Assembly: GCA_017551725.1 (NCBI GenBank)
Contig: JAFZKY010000066.1
Coordinates: forward strand, 1 to 46,601
Direction: 5' to 3'
DNA length: 46,601 nucleotides
From: Bacteroidales bacterium
GTDB lineage: Bacteria; Bacteroidota; Bacteroidia; Bacteroidales; WCHB1-69
Shown piece after piece: positions 36,958 to 43,609 of the stretch; position 1 is the first letter of the stretch; every line of letters begins with the position of its first letter. Position numbers and translations under genes: made by a program. The notes under the pieces are model-generated. The model worked only from the letters and a program-made list of their open reading frames with translations. It was not told the origin of the DNA and did no database searches.

Positions 36958-39033
36958 TTAGTACAGCAACGTTACCGTACCTTCTTTGATTATCGGACTG
37001 GATTCTCCCGGGATGAAGTATGAGATTTTGTACACATATACGCCCGCGGGACAGATTTTGCCATTCAGGCGCCCGTCCCATCCCGCGTTGGGGTCGGTGG
37101 TGCGGAATACCATCTGCCCTTGCCGTGAGAAGATGGAGAACTGGTATGTTCCGTCGGTGGGCATAAAACTGTTTATCGGCTTGAATACTGTGTTGACGGT
37201 GCCTAAGGGGGTGAATGCGTTGGGAATGTAGTACTCCGGTCGCTGTTCCACAGTGATGTGATTGGAGGCGGAAGTGTCTTGGAAACCGTAATCGTTGGGA
37301 TTCTCTTCGGCAACCACGTAATAGGTGAATTTGGATCCCAGTTCGTATAGGGTGGATACATCATCAAAGAAGTTTGTGTTCGTGGATCCGCCGTCTATTT
37401 CACTGAAAGTGGATTCGCCTTCGATGCGCCGGTTGATCTTGTATTGGAACACGCCGCCATCCCATATTCCGTAACTGTTCCAGTTGATGAGGTTTTCAAG
37501 ATGAGATGCCTTGCCCGTCAGCAAGATGTTATGCGCTATGTTGGAATGTCCGGCTTCTAACCCGCAGCTGTTGGTGATGTATGTTTGATAGTAGTAGATG
37601 TTCTTATTGAAGTCGGCGGTCGCATCCTCAAACTGGTAGGCGCTTGTAGATGATTGATAGTTTTTTGTCTCGATAGGCGTGAAAGTGATGCCGTCGTCGC
37701 TGCGTTGGAGAGTGATTTTCTGGAATTCCAACGTGTCGCCGCTGGTGTGAACCCGCACTTCGATATGATGGTTGTTGGCTACCGTAACCGACCGGATGTA
37801 GGAGAAGTCAACCGATTCATCGGCCATCAGATTGAAATTCGACCGGTCGCTGCTGGCTGTGATGGTGTTCGTCTGGTTCACCACGCGGACAAACACTCGG
37901 TATGGTTGGTTAAGAGACAGGTTTTCAATTGTATAGGAGTTGGTGGGACTGGTTCCGGCCAATTGGTAGGTGTTGCCGTTGTCGGTGCTCAGCCAGATGT
38001 CGTAGCGGCCGATGCCGTCGGCCAGATTGCGGTACGCCGTCCAGGTCAGCTTGGCCTTGCGCAGGCAGGCATCTGGAGTGACGGAAAGCTGCATTCCGCT
38101 TTGGGGATCGTTGGTGATGATGGAGGCATTGGAACGAGGAAAACAGGAGTCGAAAACGCTGAGAAAGTAATCGCGTCCGGCTCCGTTGGGGTCAATGTAG
38201 AAAGTCTGGTTGTAAACGGTGGCCAGTTCTTCATGCGGGTCGTTGATATAGACGATATACCCCTTCATGTAAGGGTCTGGCGAATGGAATCCCAACTGTA
38301 TCTGATTGTTTTCCAAAAAACTGACACTGTCCAAGATGGGCATACGCGGCTCCGTGTGGTCGATGACGGTGGCTTGCTTGGTGGAGGACATGAACTGGCA
38401 GTTGCGTTGGGATTGGGAACCGTTGATAAGCGGGATGTAGTATTTGTGGTCGATGCCGATGGCGTAGTCGATGGTGGTCTCGCACACATCTGCCAGGTCC
38501 AGATATGTGGTGACGGTGTTCGGTACAGAATCAGAGATTGTAAATGTGTTCTCGAAGGCGCGTCGTTTGAAAATGTAGAATTGGTTTCCCCAGTTGGCAT
38601 CCAGGACGGCCATAGGACTCGCCCAGGAGAGCTCGGCATCCACTCCGATGTCCCCGTTCTGCAGGTTCACTGTTCTCGTGGAAATTTGCAGCTCCAGAGT
38701 TTGGATCGTGTCGGAGTTGGCCAACTCGCCGCTGGTATTTTTGGCCACAATGAAACAAGCGAAAGTGCTGGTGCTGCCAGCCATGCCGATGACCTTGTCG
38801 CCGAAATCGTAGGGATGATAGGTGGCGGTGGTGATAATGGAGTCCACCAGGATGTTGTTGCAGTAGAAATAGTAAGTTGTGATTTGAAGATTGGCAGCGT
38901 TGGCGGGGTTTTTCCAGAAGACTTTCAGATGCGTGTTGTCATGGATGGCGATGCACTGCATGGCCGGCGGCTCGAAGGCAAAACCGACACATGTCAGACA
39001 TAGGAGTAGGACGGTGCATATAAAAGTTCTCAT
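36958..39033 (-). CDS. Large secreted protein with a C-terminal T9SS type-B (CHU_C) sorting domain
   Basis: This 691-residue precursor has a signal peptide (MRTFICTVLLLCLTCVGFAF), several fibronectin-like beta-sandwich regions (for example YDIWLSTDNGNTYQLAG and YQTYITNSCGLEAGHSN) and a gliding-motility-associated C-terminal domain at about 597-691: YYIPNAFTPLGTVNTVFKP, then FSIFSRQGQMVF, GWDGRLNGKICPAGVYVYKI and the end EGTVTLLY. In T9SS, type-B domains direct cargo across the outer membrane with SprF-like partners. It would be a surface adhesin-like protein; no enzyme domain is seen. It is the last gene of the sigma/anti-sigma operon (21 bp after the M16 gene). Its C-terminal domain is of the same kind as the end of the anti-sigma protein. 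Confidence 0.85.
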   Translation of the reverse strand: MRTFICTVLLLCLTCVGFAFEPPAMQCIAIHDNTHLKVFWKNPANAANLQITTYYFYCNNILVDSIITTATYHPYDFGDKVIGMAGSTSTFACFIVAKNTSGELANSDTIQTLELQISTRTVNLQNGDIGVDAELSWASPMAVLDANWGNQFYIFKRRAFENTFTISDSVPNTVTTYLDLADVCETTIDYAIGIDHKYYIPLINGSQSQRNCQFMSSTKQATVIDHTEPRMPILDSVSFLENNQIQLGFHSPDPYMKGYIVYINDPHEELATVYNQTFYIDPNGAGRDYFLSVFDSCFPRSNASIITNDPQSGMQLSVTPDACLRKAKLTWTAYRNLADGIGRYDIWLSTDNGNTYQLAGTSPTNSYTIENLSLNQPYRVFVRVVNQTNTITASSDRSNFNLMADESVDFSYIRSVTVANNHHIEVRVHTSGDTLEFQKITLQRSDDGITFTPIETKNYQSSTSAYQFEDATADFNKNIYYYQTYITNSCGLEAGHSNIAHNILLTGKASHLENLINWNSYGIWDGGVFQYKINRRIEGESTFSEIDGGSTNTNFFDDVSTLYELGSKFTYYVVAEENPNDYGFQDTSASNHITVEQRPEYYIPNAFTPLGTVNTVFKPINSFMPTDGTYQFSIFSRQGQMVFRTTDPNAGWDGRLNGKICPAGVYVYKISYFIPGESSPIIKEGTVTLLY

Positions 39034-39054
39034 CTTCCAAAAAACAATACAAAT

Positions 39055-40332
39055 TCACTTAACGATAACTTGGGTGAAATTATTGTGAGACAAATATTTT
39101 TTCGCCAAAGTCTGGATGCGGTCAGGGGTGATTTCACGAATATGTCGCATCATAGTCGGAAATTCTTCTTCCGTTAGGCCGAATGACTGCCAGAAAGCGT
39201 ATTTTTTCATGTAGGAAACCGAGTTTTCCACATCGCGCAGCATGTCTCCGATGATGTAATTCCGGACGGAATCCAATTCCTCTTGCGGGACGGGCTCGTC
39301 CTGCATCCGCTGCATCTCCTCAAAACAGGCTGACAGGGCGGCGTTTGCGTCAGGCGCATTGACGTTGCTGTCGATGATGAAGAGCGACTGGCTCCCGAAA
39401 TAGACGCTGCCGGACGACACGCCGTAGGTGTATCCCTCTTTCTCGCGCAGCCGCTGCATCAGTCGCGAACCGAAATAGCCGCCCAGGAGCGTGGATAGGA
39501 TAGAGAAGTCCCGTTTGTCGGGGTCGAGATAGCCAATGTTCGGCATCCCGAGGCTGATGGAGGCTTGCACGGCGGTAGGGATGGTGCCGTGAATGACAGG
39601 CGTGCGGTCAGAGGGTAACGGAATGGCGCCGAGAGGGAGAACGGCTTTCCCCGAGGGGATTTGGGAGAAAAGGTTGACAATGAGTTGATTTAGCGTATCA
39701 TCGATGTTTCCGGTCGCGAAAAGGGTGATGTTCTCGGCCACAAATGTCTCTTGATGATAGTTTTTCATCTGTCCGATGGTGATGGCGGAAATAAATTCCT
39801 TGGTGGAGATCTGTCCGGCGGTGACAGCATCCCCGAACATGGCGTGCAATAGCAGTTGGGTGGCCTTGAATTCCGTTTTCTGCTCGTTGTATTCCAGGTC
39901 TTTGATGCGGATGTTCCGATATATGGAAAGATTTTCTTCTCGGAATTCGGGACAGGCCAAAAACTCGAAGATGACAGGCAATATGTTCGATATCTGGCAT
40001 TTCGGGGCGGATATGGAGATGTTAACCCATTCCAGCGTCTGCGAAACGGTATAGTGCGTGCCGTTGAAGTCCATCCGGTCGGCAATCTCGTTGGCCGTAT
40101 ATCGGGGTGAACTCTCTTTTAGCAGCGAATAGGTGAACAGCGCCAGGTGCTTGACGTGTTCGTGAAGGGTTCCCGCTTTCACTCGGATGAGCAGGTGGAT
40201 GAGGTCCAACGGTTCGTTCGGGAAAATGAAAAGGGGAATGTGGTTCGGCAGATGTTGGAGAATAGGAGCCTGCAGCCTGATCTGGTCGATAGGCTGGATG
40301 ACGGGTGGGGTGGACCTGTCAGGCGAGTGCAT
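39055..40332 (-). CDS. M16-family peptidase homologue lacking the HxxEH zinc motif
   Basis: This 425-residue protein has the two-domain M16 (insulinase/processing-peptidase) layout. The N-terminal domain would place the zinc motif HxxEH near residues 65-74, but the sequence there is LFTYSLLKES, so the histidines and glutamate are absent. The C-terminal domain keeps GGYFGSRLMQRLREKEGYTYGVSSG (284-308), the Arg/Tyr substrate-binding motif of the non-catalytic partner subunit. No signal peptide is present, so it should be cytoplasmic. M16 enzymes often pair an active with an inactive subunit; no active partner is encoded beside it. It lies 6 bp after the anti-sigma gene and 21 bp before the type-B cargo gene, firmly inside the operon. 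Confidence 0.88.
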   Translation of the reverse strand: MHSPDRSTPPVIQPIDQIRLQAPILQHLPNHIPLFIFPNEPLDLIHLLIRVKAGTLHEHVKHLALFTYSLLKESSPRYTANEIADRMDFNGTHYTVSQTLEWVNISISAPKCQISNILPVIFEFLACPEFREENLSIYRNIRIKDLEYNEQKTEFKATQLLLHAMFGDAVTAGQISTKEFISAITIGQMKNYHQETFVAENITLFATGNIDDTLNQLIVNLFSQIPSGKAVLPLGAIPLPSDRTPVIHGTIPTAVQASISLGMPNIGYLDPDKRDFSILSTLLGGYFGSRLMQRLREKEGYTYGVSSGSVYFGSQSLFIIDSNVNAPDANAALSACFEEMQRMQDEPVPQEELDSVRNYIIGDMLRDVENSVSYMKKYAFWQSFGLTEEEFPTMMRHIREITPDRIQTLAKKYLSHNNFTQVIVK

Positions 40333-40338
40333 GGGTGT

Positions 40339-41268
40339 TTATTTGAGCAGGGTGATGGTCCCCTTCTGATATTTCGGGGAACCGTCTTTCTTCTTGAAGC
40401 GGATGGTGTAGATGTAAACGCCAGGAGGTAACACTGCACCCGAGTTTTGAATTCGTCCGTTCCAGCCTTCGTTCATGTCGCGGGTGTGGAACACCAGTTG
40501 GCCGTTCCGGGAGAAGACGTTCAGTTCGAAGGTGGCGACATCTATTTCCCTGTGTGTGACCGTGTCGGGGAACACGTAGAACTTGTCGTTCTTGTTATCG
40601 TCGTTAGGTGAGAAGGCGTTCGGAGCCCAGAAAGAGTAGGGGATTTCGTTGTTTCGGGCACTCTTCATAGGAGCGGTTGGAGTGTTCTCCATATCAATGT
40701 CCGCAACAGCTTCTTCAGGATGTTGGACGGGCCTGTTTATGTTTGGTATTTCTGTGTTGGAGGAAAGGACAGGTTGGATGGTCCCGGTGCCTGATTTTGG
40801 TTGCATGTTGAAGGCAACGGGTGCGGCGGGGATGTTGTTGGGCACAGGAGAAACCGCGATCACAGGTTCTGCCACAGGCGTGTTGAGTGTAGCGGTAACC
40901 GATGGAATGTCAGTGTTTTCCGCTTGTGTCGCGGGCGTTTCAGGTGCAGTGGGGACTTCTTGGAACGGTGCGGCTTGTGCGACAGTCTTGTCGGTGGCCG
41001 GTGTGGCGGAAATCATTTCCTGTGTGACGGGGACTGGTTCTGACGGTTGGTTGGTGCCAACTTCGGAACGGGTGCCCATTGTTCCCGCCAGTATGAGGGC
41101 ACTGGCGGCGGCTATGGTCGTCAGCCCGCCGAGCGTGTAGCCCGCTATGCGGCGCACGAGCCGGCCTTTGTTATATTTCATCACCGTAGGATCTTGGGAA
41201 ATGGTTTCCCAGCCCGCTTCATCCATGGGGGATTGATATTGTTCAAACTGCGTTTTCAGATCTTTCAT
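40339..41268 (-). CDS. Anti-sigma factor fused to a T9SS type-B (CHU_C) domain
   Basis: This 309-residue protein has a short cytoplasmic region (1-40, FEQYQSPMDEAGWETI, as in Bacteroidota anti-sigma N-termini), one membrane helix (about 42-65), a long Pro/Ala/Thr/Val linker (about 66-208) and a CHU_C domain at about 212-309. That domain reads FWAPNAFSPNDDNKNDKFYVFP, FELNVFSRNGQLVF, GWNGRIQNSG, PPGVYIYTI and ends KGTITLLK. It lies 17 bp after the ECF sigma gene, so it is very likely its anti-sigma factor, with the sorting-type domain in the periplasm. A CHU_C domain on an inner-membrane regulator is unusual, since such domains normally mark secreted cargo. An alternative is a T9SS cargo protein with an atypical leader, but position and N-terminus favour the anti-sigma reading. 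Confidence 0.82.
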   Translation of the reverse strand: MKDLKTQFEQYQSPMDEAGWETISQDPTVMKYNKGRLVRRIAGYTLGGLTTIAAASALILAGTMGTRSEVGTNQPSEPVPVTQEMISATPATDKTVAQAAPFQEVPTAPETPATQAENTDIPSVTATLNTPVAEPVIAVSPVPNNIPAAPVAFNMQPKSGTGTIQPVLSSNTEIPNINRPVQHPEEAVADIDMENTPTAPMKSARNNEIPYSFWAPNAFSPNDDNKNDKFYVFPDTVTHREIDVATFELNVFSRNGQLVFHTRDMNEGWNGRIQNSGAVLPPGVYIYTIRFKKKDGSPKYQKGTITLLK

Positions 41269-41285
41269 ATTTTATATAATTTGGT

Positions 41286-41840
41286 TCAAAATTGAAATTC
41301 CTCGTTGTTGAGATAGTTTTGTATTTTTTTTCGCAATATGCTTTTGGCACGTGAAATGAGCGATCGCACATTGCTGTGACTTTCATTCATCATGACCACG
41401 ATTTCGTTTTGGCTGATGCCGTCAATGACGTACAGGTTGAAAGCTGTGCGGTATTTGTCGGGCAGCTCGTTGATATACCGGAGCAGTTGTGCCATGGTCA
41501 GCGTCTCGTTGCCCATGACGGGTGCGGCCGGGTCTGCGTAGTCTGCCGATTCGATGTCGTCGGTCTGTCGTCGTTGTTGGCGCCGGTAGTGGTCGATGGC
41601 CTTGTTGATGGTGATGGTGCGAAGCCATCCGTTCAAAGAACTGATGTTTTTGTAATCCTTGAAATGCGTCAGAATGAACACGAACGTGTCGTGGAACAGA
41701 TCTTCGGCATCCTGTCCATTGGCGGCATATCGCTCGCAGATGCCTTTTATCATTGGACCGTATTGGAGGTATAACTGTTTCTGGCTGTGTGTTTTACCAG
41801 CAATACACCCTTTGATTATCTGTTTTTCTTCTTCAGTCAT
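41286..41840 (-). CDS. ECF-type RNA polymerase sigma factor
   Basis: This 184-residue sigma-70 family factor of the extracytoplasmic-function type has region 2 (AEDLFHDTFVFILTHFKDYKN, SSLNGWLRTITINKAIDHYRR) and region 4 (LPDKYRTAFNLYVIDGISQNEIVVMMNESHSNVRSLISRAKSILR) joined by a short acidic linker. Such factors redirect RNA polymerase to stress or envelope genes and are held by a membrane anti-sigma factor. It is the first gene of a tight minus-strand operon with gaps of 17, 6 and 21 bp. A TATTTTTG box at 41886-41893 precedes it, so basal transcription by the housekeeping factor is likely. Target genes are not shown by the sequence. Confidence 0.95.
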   Translation of the reverse strand: MTEEEKQIIKGCIAGKTHSQKQLYLQYGPMIKGICERYAANGQDAEDLFHDTFVFILTHFKDYKNISSLNGWLRTITINKAIDHYRRQQRRQTDDIESADYADPAAPVMGNETLTMAQLLRYINELPDKYRTAFNLYVIDGISQNEIVVMMNESHSNVRSLISRAKSILRKKIQNYLNNEEFQF

Positions 41841-41885
41841 GGAATCACATAACTTCTATATAACGATTCTGCCTCTCTTTTGTTG

Positions 41886-41893
41886 CAAAAATA
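41886..41893 (-). promoter_or_regulatory. Bacteroidota-type -7 promoter box before the ECF sigma operon
   Basis: The minus strand reads TATTTTTGC, matching TAnnTTTG, 46 bp upstream of the ATG. The best -33 candidate is TTTC at 41917-41920, with a spacer of 23, longer than usual. Confidence 0.45.
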
Positions 41894-41971: not shown

Positions 41972-42055
41972 CAGCGTTTTTGTGCGCGTGTTCTGATTTG
42001 GTAATTTTGCGTCAAATACTTGTTTGTGCGCTTTTTAACAATGATTACCATAATT

Positions 42056-43609
42056 ATGAAAAAGTTAAACAAATTGCAAATCAGAACATTTTTTGGATTT
42101 TTCTTCCTCGCTGTGTTTTCCTTGGCTTCGGAAGCGCAGACGGTACTTTACAAAGAAAATTTCGGCCTTCCGGCGGGCACCACGCTGGTTCAGCAATATG
42201 CCGGCTGGGAGGACACTTCGGTGGTTTACAGCGGCGACGGCACCTGCGACTTGCGGATCACGTCTGCCTCTTCGGGGTATGGCGGCGCTTCCGGTGGCGG
42301 GAATGTGATGATCAACGACACGGTGAAGTGGTTTCAGATTTCGGGGTTGAATACGTTGGCATACACGGACATGTCGCTCTATTGTGGCCTTCGGAAGACC
42401 GCATCGGATGATGGTACTAACCTTGTCGTCAAGGTGTCTGCCGACGGTGTCGCGTGGGCACGTTTGACGATGGAGGACTCGCTGCCCAGCGGCACGGGCA
42501 CGTCGGGCTGGTATCGTGTCCGTTTCCCCAATGTGCCGGCTACTTCCAACCTGCACATTCGTTTCACCAACATATCGCAGAAGGAGTACCGCCTGGATGA
42601 TTTGGCTCTGGTCGTCGGCACGGAAACGGTGCTGGAAACGGTGTCGGTCCCTGCGTTTTCTCCGTCTGGTGGTACCTATTATGAGGCCCAGCAGGTCACA
42701 ATCACCACCACTACCGCCAATGCGGAGATTTACTACACACTTGACGGCTCCGTGCCCACGCGCGCGAGTATGCTCTATCAGAATCCCGTCACGGTGGACC
42801 GCACAACGACACTGAAAGCGATTGCCGTGTCCGACGGGATGTACGACAGCGATGTGGCAACGGCTTCCTACGTGATACTGGACACAAACTCTCTCGTGAC
42901 CTTACCGTTAGATCTTTCTGACAATAGCTCAAACTCGCATCTGGACATCACGCATCTGGAGGGTTTCCGGGCCTATGATCTGGGTACGTCGTACGCGGAC
43001 GGGTCGGCGAAATTCGAAGCATCGAATGCCGGTTCGGCTGCCCTGGTGGCCCATCTGGACAGCGCCCCGCTCGAACTGATGTTCGAGGTGAAAGGGAAGA
43101 AGGCCGGTTCCAACCCGTCGGCATACCAGGGAATCCTCTTTTCGGTCAGCCAATCGCCGGATGGCCACTCCTGGAGCGACTTGCTTACCCTGACGGAACA
43201 GGATATCCGGGAGGACGACTTTGTTTCCGTAAGCAATCTTACGCTCCGTCCGCAAACCCGTTACATTCGATGGAAACTGGTCCAAGCCGAAAAGGGGAAC
43301 ACCCAGCTGAACAATATCGTCATTACACAGAACACGAATCCGCCATCGGGCGACACCACGCTTGTGTTGGACTATAACCACTATCCGTTTGCCTTGTACC
43401 CAAATCCCACATCGGGCAGGGTTTATCTGCATGATGGCGGTATGCACCTGATTGATTTACAACTTTTTGATATTAAAGGGCAGATGGTGGCGTCGTGGTC
43501 TGACAATATCCCGAATAGCATCTCCTTGTCACATTTGCCGCAGGGCTCATACGTGCTTCGCATTCATACGGACGAAGGCATCTTCTTCCGGAAGGTGGTG
43601 AAATACTGA
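42056..43609 (+). CDS. Secreted protein with chitobiase-type C-terminal domain and T9SS type-A sorting domain
   Basis: This 517-residue precursor has a signal peptide (start MKKLNKLQIR; cleavage near ASEAQ). An N-terminal beta-sandwich with NFGLPAGTTLVQQYAGWED and YRLDDLALVVG follows. A CHB_HEX_C-type domain comes next (SPSGGTYYEAQQVTITT, AEIYYTLDGSVPT, then TTTLKAIAVSDG), followed by a second beta-rich domain. The protein ends in a type-A T9SS sorting domain (YPFALYPNPTSGRVYLHDGG, LFDIKGQMVASW, LPQGSYVLRIHTDEG, FRKVVKY). It should be secreted to the cell surface. The start is the ATG at 42056, since the in-frame codon at 42020 would lengthen the signal. It is divergent from the sigma operon across a 215-bp gap with a consensus promoter. 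No catalytic domain is seen. Confidence 0.88.
   Translation: MKKLNKLQIRTFFGFFFLAVFSLASEAQTVLYKENFGLPAGTTLVQQYAGWEDTSVVYSGDGTCDLRITSASSGYGGASGGGNVMINDTVKWFQISGLNTLAYTDMSLYCGLRKTASDDGTNLVVKVSADGVAWARLTMEDSLPSGTGTSGWYRVRFPNVPATSNLHIRFTNISQKEYRLDDLALVVGTETVLETVSVPAFSPSGGTYYEAQQVTITTTTANAEIYYTLDGSVPTRASMLYQNPVTVDRTTTLKAIAVSDGMYDSDVATASYVILDTNSLVTLPLDLSDNSSNSHLDITHLEGFRAYDLGTSYADGSAKFEASNAGSAALVAHLDSAPLELMFEVKGKKAGSNPSAYQGILFSVSQSPDGHSWSDLLTLTEQDIREDDFVSVSNLTLRPQTRYIRWKLVQAEKGNTQLNNIVITQNTNPPSGDTTLVLDYNHYPFALYPNPTSGRVYLHDGGMHLIDLQLFDIKGQMVASWSDNIPNSISLSHLPQGSYVLRIHTDEGIFFRKVVKY

Follow-up and report, generated by a model that had tools for sequence, protein, structure and literature searches.

An ECF sigma operon of Bacteroidales encodes a predicted anti-sigma factor with a type IX secretion sorting domain, a zinc-less M16 homologue, and a secreted cargo protein

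The window analyzed here is a stretch of 46,601 nucleotides from a Bacteroidales bacterium of the WCHB1-69 lineage (NCBI GenBank assembly GCA_017551725.1, contig JAFZKY010000066.1, positions 1 to 46,601 of the forward strand). Its minus strand carries an operon of four genes that encode, in 5'->3' order, an extracytoplasmic function (ECF) sigma factor, a presumed anti-sigma factor ending in a type B sorting domain of the type IX secretion system (T9SS), a homologue of M16 peptidases devoid of zinc ligands, and a secreted cargo protein, with intergenic gaps of only 17, 6, and 21 bp. A first-pass annotation, made from the letters of the sequence, had proposed these four closely spaced open reading frames (ORFs) together with a promoter-like box upstream of them, and this layout was borne out by the ORF coordinates and by domain scans. 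The following features were assigned (positions of the window):

41861-41887, minus strand: ECF-type promoter motif TGCAACA-N14-TCGTTA (alignment of upstream regions, single match)
41286-41840, minus strand: ECF sigma factor gene, 184 aa (Sigma70_r2 1e-16 and r4_2 1.4e-11 in Pfam; sigma70-ECF 2.2e-25 in NCBIfam; sigma tree)
40339-41268, minus strand: putative anti-sigma factor gene, 309 aa, with type B T9SS sorting domain (CHU_C 8.4e-16 in Pfam; TIGR04131 above cut-off; conserved architecture)
39055-40332, minus strand: M16 homologue without zinc ligands, 425 aa, no signal peptide by reading (Peptidase_M16_C 3.8e-30 in Pfam)
36958-39033, minus strand: secreted cargo with FN3 and type B sorting domains, 691 aa, signal peptide by reading (CHU_C 3.3e-7 and fn3 4.9e-6 in Pfam)

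Both CHU_C and fn3 scored above the Pfam cut-off in the cargo protein, and the NCBIfam model of the type B sorting domain, TIGR04131, was passed by the anti-sigma protein (40.9 bits, cut-off 35) and missed by the cargo (30.9 bits). The Peptidase_M16 model of Pfam fell slightly under its cut-off in the M16 homologue (21.2 versus 22.3 bits).

The role of the 309-residue protein as an anti-sigma factor is suggested by the position of its gene and by its architecture, in which four parts were distinguished:

41134-41268, minus strand: N-terminal domain, residues 1-45, with invariant Trp20, presumed to be cytoplasmic and to bind sigma (N-terminal alignment)
41077-41133, minus strand: single transmembrane (TM) helix, residues 46-64 (hydropathy and charge count)
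40624-41076, minus strand: tether rich in Pro, Thr, and Ala, residues 65-215 (length with a floor, sequence unconserved)
40342-40623, minus strand: type B T9SS sorting domain (CHU_C), residues 216-309 (Pfam, NCBIfam, alignment)

Four Lys or Arg residues are present within the 12 residues preceding the TM helix and one within the 12 following it, which puts most of the positive charge on the presumed inner side. Unlike in usual type B cargo, this internal helix stands in place of a cleavable N-terminal Sec signal peptide; the sorting domain is located at the C terminus, as in cargo. The tether of the window protein comprises 151 residues, 70% of which are P, T, S, A, N, Q, E, or K (composition count), and its length ranges from 137 to 203 residues across the 33 family proteins that were measured, including one from a second pair in the window genome (see below). 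In 64 of 65 sorting-domain anti-sigma proteins, measured on the best domain match and with one protein left out for want of a TM call, the TM helix and the sorting domain are 134 to 296 residues apart (median 167.5); sorting-domain calls outside the window, apart from proteins scanned with Pfam or NCBIfam, rest on a purpose-built profile. Since the tether has a length floor, yet its sequence is not conserved in the alignment, it may be read as a periplasm-spanning cable, for which a floor of 134 residues is as expected. By reading, 33 of the 38 aligned rows have the tether and sorting domain alone outside the inner membrane, while in some members a further module precedes the sorting domain, identified by Pfam as PKD in L148 and L150.

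A genome search revealed matches to the M16 protein in 93 of the 104 genomes of the family, many of the compared genomes being incomplete. We selected 59 stretches centered on the M16 gene from 58 of these 93 genomes, plus one stretch centered on the anti-sigma gene. The sigma and anti-sigma genes directly precede the M16 gene in 35 of the 59 stretches, which represent six genera (a stop interrupts the anti-sigma frame in one of the 35, L093), and the idea that the operon is an oddity of one strain, an outcome that the first-pass annotation had allowed for, was thus rejected. All four genes are complete in 25 of the 59 stretches, from four genera as counted by hand; the cargo gene runs off the contig in L086 and L100, and the cargo orthologues within the operon are mostly 680-715 aa long. 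Because the same gene order recurs across the family, the four-gene arrangement is not a product of chance. In the remaining 24 stretches, some of which lie at contig ends, no sigma pair is visible beside the M16 gene. The window genome also contains a second pair of sigma and sorting-domain anti-sigma genes (L013 5538-7022), adjoined by neither an M16 nor a cargo gene, and the sigma factor of this pair forms the longest end branch of the sigma tree described below.

A profile of the N-terminal domain, 70 positions long and with Trp20 as the only invariant one, found matches at E 0.01 in 193 of 295 genomes across the order and at E 0.001 in 149 of 395 across the class, and the loci of the 30 best-scoring matches of each search were read. 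Outside the genus, all 54 of these best-scoring loci (26/26 in the order, 28/28 in the class) have an ECF sigma gene directly upstream, and no CHU_C membrane protein lacking a sigma neighbor, the counterexample named by the first-pass annotation, was found among them. Each of these loci thus has its sigma neighbor, in support of that annotation, but the class turned out to be wider than CHU_C-ended proteins: the type B sorting domain ends the protein in 20 of the 54 loci, three proteins are short with neither end, and the rest look barrel-ended. The label "barrel-like" was given on the grounds of protein length, position, and the pattern at the C terminus; of 30 such proteins, 18 terminate with Phe or Trp (hand count), and two of the six scanned passed the Pfam cut-off for OMP_b-brl. 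On a sigma tree of 95 rows, made by a quick method, the type of outer end needs five changes compared with 25.6 after shuffling, although well-supported branches force only one; the tree omitted L093 for its stop-broken anti-sigma gene, the short L167, L212, and L221, duplicate loci, and L003, a near copy on a cut contig. Since so few changes are needed relative to shuffled data, one regulator family carries both kinds of outer end. In L167, L212, and L221, the anti-sigma proteins with this N-terminal domain are 198-257 aa long and have neither a barrel nor a sorting domain.

The nearest described architecture is that of the Dma proteins of Bacteroides, i.e., anti-sigma factors ending in an outer-membrane barrel (PMC13088901, as far as the available passages go). 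Judged by architecture, the Dma/Das pairs of Bacteroides thetaiotaomicron (Dma1, Dma2; ECF21) share with the proteins studied here the N-terminal anti-sigma domain, one TM helix, a long tether, presumably disordered here as well, a predicted outer-membrane end, and an ECF sigma gene alongside. They differ in that the outer end is here a T9SS type B sorting domain with no C-terminal barrel, that an M16 and a type B cargo gene share the operon, and that the predicted targets are T9SS cargo genes (see below), whereas those of Dma, in the same passages, are polysaccharide utilization loci and outer-membrane vesicle genes. Among the matches listed, no title or abstract beginning in the open-licence literature describes an anti-sigma factor that carries a sorting domain for T9SS.

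The HxxEH motif is missing from the window M16 protein, as its earlier description as zinc-less implied, and from 19 other aligned inactive orthologues. The non-catalytic subunit of an M16 pair carries an R/Y pair of residues, and these were retained in the window protein:

39424-39447, minus strand: R..Y residues of a non-catalytic M16 subunit, REKEGYTY (alignment of active and inactive subunits)

The two kinds of aligned proteins are complementary, as the 11 zinc-bearing ones have HxxEH and lack the R/Y pair, while the 20 zinc-less ones, including that of the window, show the reverse. The zinc-bearing partner in the window genome, which contains HLMEH and no R/Y pair, is encoded at an unlinked site (C12, L195). 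Such a partner is present in 91 of the 104 family genomes; by hand count, 86 have both subunits, seven only the zinc-less one, five only the zinc-bearing one, and six neither, with genome incompleteness inflating the absences of both subunits. In other Bacteroidales, a frequent order is an M16 gene with HLFEH, sigma, anti-sigma, an M16 gene without HxxEH, and cargo. Among 20 sorting-domain neighborhoods of the order (11 known sorting-domain loci and nine picked by ORF length), an HxxEH M16 gene lies upstream in 11 and a zinc-less one downstream in 11, both are present in 10, and both together with the cargo in six. When equal flanks were compared within the order, an M16 gene adjoined 6 of 11 sorting-domain loci but none of the 15 other anti-sigma loci (p 0.002; the loci come from related genomes and are not fully independent). 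Furthermore, the zinc-less M16 gene directly follows the PorX gene in all three fetched g12 loci (L123-L125; gene order), two of these PorX neighbors having response-regulator and PglZ domains by Pfam and one matching a PorX model at 1.8e-225. In genus g3, a pair of M16 and cargo genes without sigma genes in its stretch (L104 5177-8526) has an ECF motif 29 bp upstream. The M16 protein, previously proposed to be a cytoplasmic partner, is most plausibly the zinc-less member of a peptidase made of two subunits, predicted to be a dimer. It resembles the two-subunit M16 peptidase 3amj of Sphingomonas in that one subunit carries HxxEH and the other is zinc-less with R/Y; it differs in that the genes flank the sigma/anti-sigma pair in other Bacteroidales and that the subunits are unlinked in the window genome.

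Alignment of the upstream regions gave the consensus TGCAACR-N14/15-WCGTYW. The window motif is located 20 bp from the start codon of the sigma gene and is the single match in the window, compared with 0.10 expected in shuffles, which agrees with the promoter-like box noticed earlier. The strict motif was present in 14 of the 20 stretches of the same genus (L084-L103), and ten genomes of the genus contained 53 motif sites versus 16 for the reversed pattern, a control that comprises counts only and no downstream genes. The 49 distinct sites were sorted by hand: seven precede the sigma operon (in 8 of the 10 genomes, two with identical sequence), nine precede complete genes of secreted proteins with a T9SS sorting domain (seven type B and two type A), and ten precede signal-peptide genes cut by the end of a contig or stretch, nine of which resemble, by reading, the sigma-operon or cargo families. 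Pfam was run on five of the seven type B targets, with four above the cut-off and L273 1 bit below it, and both type A targets were above; the type B calls for L285 and L289 rest on the purpose-built profile. Three type B targets are only 145-147 aa long and contain little beyond a signal peptide and a sorting domain (L257 1554-1991, L270 1939-2376, and L294 1121-1564); such tiny proteins behind an ECF motif might possibly act as a competitor or a primer of T9SS. In the window genome, neither SprA nor any PorP/SprF gene is preceded by the motif. The first-pass annotation had linked sigma activity to type IX secretion and asked whether T9SS genes respond to it, and the conserved motif does point, in one genus, to T9SS cargo, but the predicted regulon looks like one of cargo and not of machinery. 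One motif-bearing 27-mer, identical or one base off, was seen in L232, L237, L244, L269, L272, and L281, which represent six of the ten genomes, and no gene clearly starts within 150 bp of it.

A search covering SprA and PorP/SprF revealed T9SS in the window genome, with SprA at 5e-162 and three PorP/SprF proteins. A type B protein of Porphyromonas gingivalis binds PorP, and SprB of Flavobacterium johnsoniae binds SprF (PMC9143113, in the passages available). The architecture and its conservation, the complementarity of the M16 proteins, and the promoter motif with the genes behind it are features of the sequences themselves, and they would fit an operon that acts as a trans-envelope anti-sigma switch, reading the state of T9SS and setting the transcription of its cargo, a reading to which we give an even chance. 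Residues 1-45 of the anti-sigma factor would hold the ECF sigma factor in the cytoplasm, the single TM helix would anchor the protein in the inner membrane, and the tether of at least 134 residues would reach the outer membrane, where the sorting domain, instead of a barrel of its own as in Dma, would engage the T9SS translocon and a PorP/SprF-type anchor. When T9SS takes the sorting domain, owing to free capacity and perhaps by pull or surface docking, the anti-sigma factor would release sigma, which would then transcribe its own operon and genes of T9SS surface cargo, and the new cargo would compete for the same T9SS and so restore the brake. We infer that sigma activity follows the T9SS state in this direction. 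The M16 protein would supply the zinc-less half of a cytoplasmic peptidase whose most likely task is to degrade the short piece of anti-sigma factor presumably freed by membrane proteolysis, since M16 peptidases favor short peptides.

A similar logic, applied to flagellin, is known from FlgM, the soluble anti-sigma factor of sigma-28, which leaves the cell by a type III system. FlgM bears the signal for export by the flagellar machine, and the sigma factor that it restrains transcribes the late genes of that machine. The protein described here may follow this scheme, with motif sites before T9SS cargo genes in one genus, but it is fixed in the membrane and would use T9SS, and no homology is claimed. 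We propose, tentatively and with somewhat less than even confidence, that an inner-membrane-anchored anti-sigma factor is itself a type B substrate, which passes through the translocon and binds to a PorP-like barrel, whereby the T9SS state directly gates cargo transcription and a dedicated two-subunit M16 peptidase clears the spent brake; the FlgM logic would thereby have been reinvented in a form that is evolutionarily interchangeable with the barrel-ended Dma receptors. Concerning the matching of T9SS capacity to surface-protein production in Bacteroidota, the best worked-out case in the literature passages is PorX-PorY-SigP of P. gingivalis, in which an ECF sigma factor is tied to T9SS and influenced by the sorting-domain protein PorA; in these passages SigP is controlled by the binding of PorX, and no anti-sigma gene is named for it (PMC7712824). 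The link of an ECF sigma factor to T9SS and to a sorting-domain protein is common to both systems, whereas in the present operon the anti-sigma factor itself contains the sorting domain and the predicted targets are cargo, not machinery. Another likeness is offered by the SM6 class of ECF promoters in Flavobacterium psychrophilum, which have a CGT box and, according to the passages at hand, include one sigma/anti-sigma pair and T9SS components such as GldN and PorU (PMC9723704). The SM6 class includes machinery genes, and this comparison concerns promoters and genes, not the architecture of the anti-sigma factor. An anti-sigma factor bearing a T9SS signal would be a direct link from secretion machine to transcription; it suggests that a trans-envelope receptor can leave its outer end to a secretion system, and it points to a role for the M16 pair of Bacteroidales.

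Several results weigh against the switch, or limit its reach. Nineteen of the 49 distinct motif sites fall within ORFs or have no gene behind them, and four precede other genes, namely those of a FISUMP-domain protein, a response regulator, a lipoprotein-like protein, and an unknown protein. In the window genome, ten other genes with CHU_C were inspected and none has even a relaxed motif; leaving aside L023, which starts outside its stretch, this amounts to 0 of 9, and a regulon of all T9SS cargo was rejected. The relaxed motif precedes 14 of 36 sorting-domain sigma genes in the family and 0 of 29 in the order and class, as well as, in the class, 2 of 18 sigma genes whose partner has another kind of end. 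Given these counts, the motif is restricted to certain lineages and reaches just a part of the cargo, and the regulon is one seen for one genus. Moreover, SprA occurs in 28 of 29 sorting-domain genomes and in 30 of 30 others, and the presence of T9SS was rejected as a discriminator of the two end types, as SprA was found in 58 of the 59 genomes tried, with both types among them; the genome without it, G352, is a sorting-domain genome that is 94% complete.

The same architecture could serve a receptor for surface ligands, whose sorting domain would be exported a single time and settle on a PorP-like barrel; the switch would then sense an outside ligand or surface contact, with the FN3 cargo as a co-receptor and T9SS needed for assembly only. 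The barrel-looking proteins of the same anti-sigma class, the glycan sensing at the surface hypothesized by the authors of Dma2 (PMC13088901, in the passages available), the FN3 cargo in the operon, and the extra modules, such as PKD, of some members speak for such a receptor. However, most aligned rows expose nothing but tether and sorting domain, and the predicted targets are T9SS cargo, so we consider it unlikely. An alarm of the opposite sign, in which a jammed or missing T9SS leaves the sorting domain in the periplasm to be cleaved or to rebind and sigma is thereby freed, would be in keeping with envelope-stress ECF systems, which usually respond to failure. The SM6 class, in which an ECF-type promoter with a sigma/anti-sigma pair drives GldN and PorU, would also agree with such an alarm; yet SprA and PorP/SprF are not among the genes that follow a motif site in the window genome, and extra cargo would aggravate a jam, which makes an alarm improbable. 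Still less probable, and indeed very doubtful, is that CHU_C is a folded periplasmic module that is never exported and that the anti-sigma factor is of the ordinary kind that spans one membrane. In favor of this, the protein has an internal TM helix where usual cargo has a cleavable signal peptide, but the C-terminal position of the domain as in cargo, the length floor of an unconserved tether, and the alternative outer ends that look like barrels, many of them with terminal Phe or Trp, argue against it.

As to the M16 gene, it might be a bystander, encoding a housekeeping peptidase subunit that is co-transcribed for some other reason, e.g., processing linked to EF-P or tRNA. The closest NCBIfam kin of the protein are YfmF and YfmH, far under the cut-off, and the gene is also found away from sigma genes, after cysS in g14 and, in g17, fused to a CCA-type tRNA nucleotidyltransferase (cca; L142 442-3264), one protein having been scanned in each case; because of these other homes, the M16 protein may have another job. 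The 24 family stretches with no sigma pair in sight point the same way. Also weighing against the switch as read above, an M16 neighbor was seen, at the class level, at 0 of 9 sorting-domain loci, which were 3-kb loci, and at 0 of 19 loci with other ends. Against a bystander stand the association with sorting-domain loci of the order, reported above with its caveat of relatedness, the position beside PorX in g12, and the ECF motif upstream of the M16 gene even where it is unlinked in g3. On this evidence a bystander seems somewhat unlikely to us, and the M16 protein may be dedicated to the switch.

Two further features of the window touch upon T9SS. The divergent neighbor of the operon (42020-43609, plus strand) encodes a chitobiase-like/Fn3_assoc protein with a type A T9SS tail, and near the contig end (45971-46495, minus strand) there is a fragment weakly similar to the N-terminal propeller of PorZ, under the cut-off.

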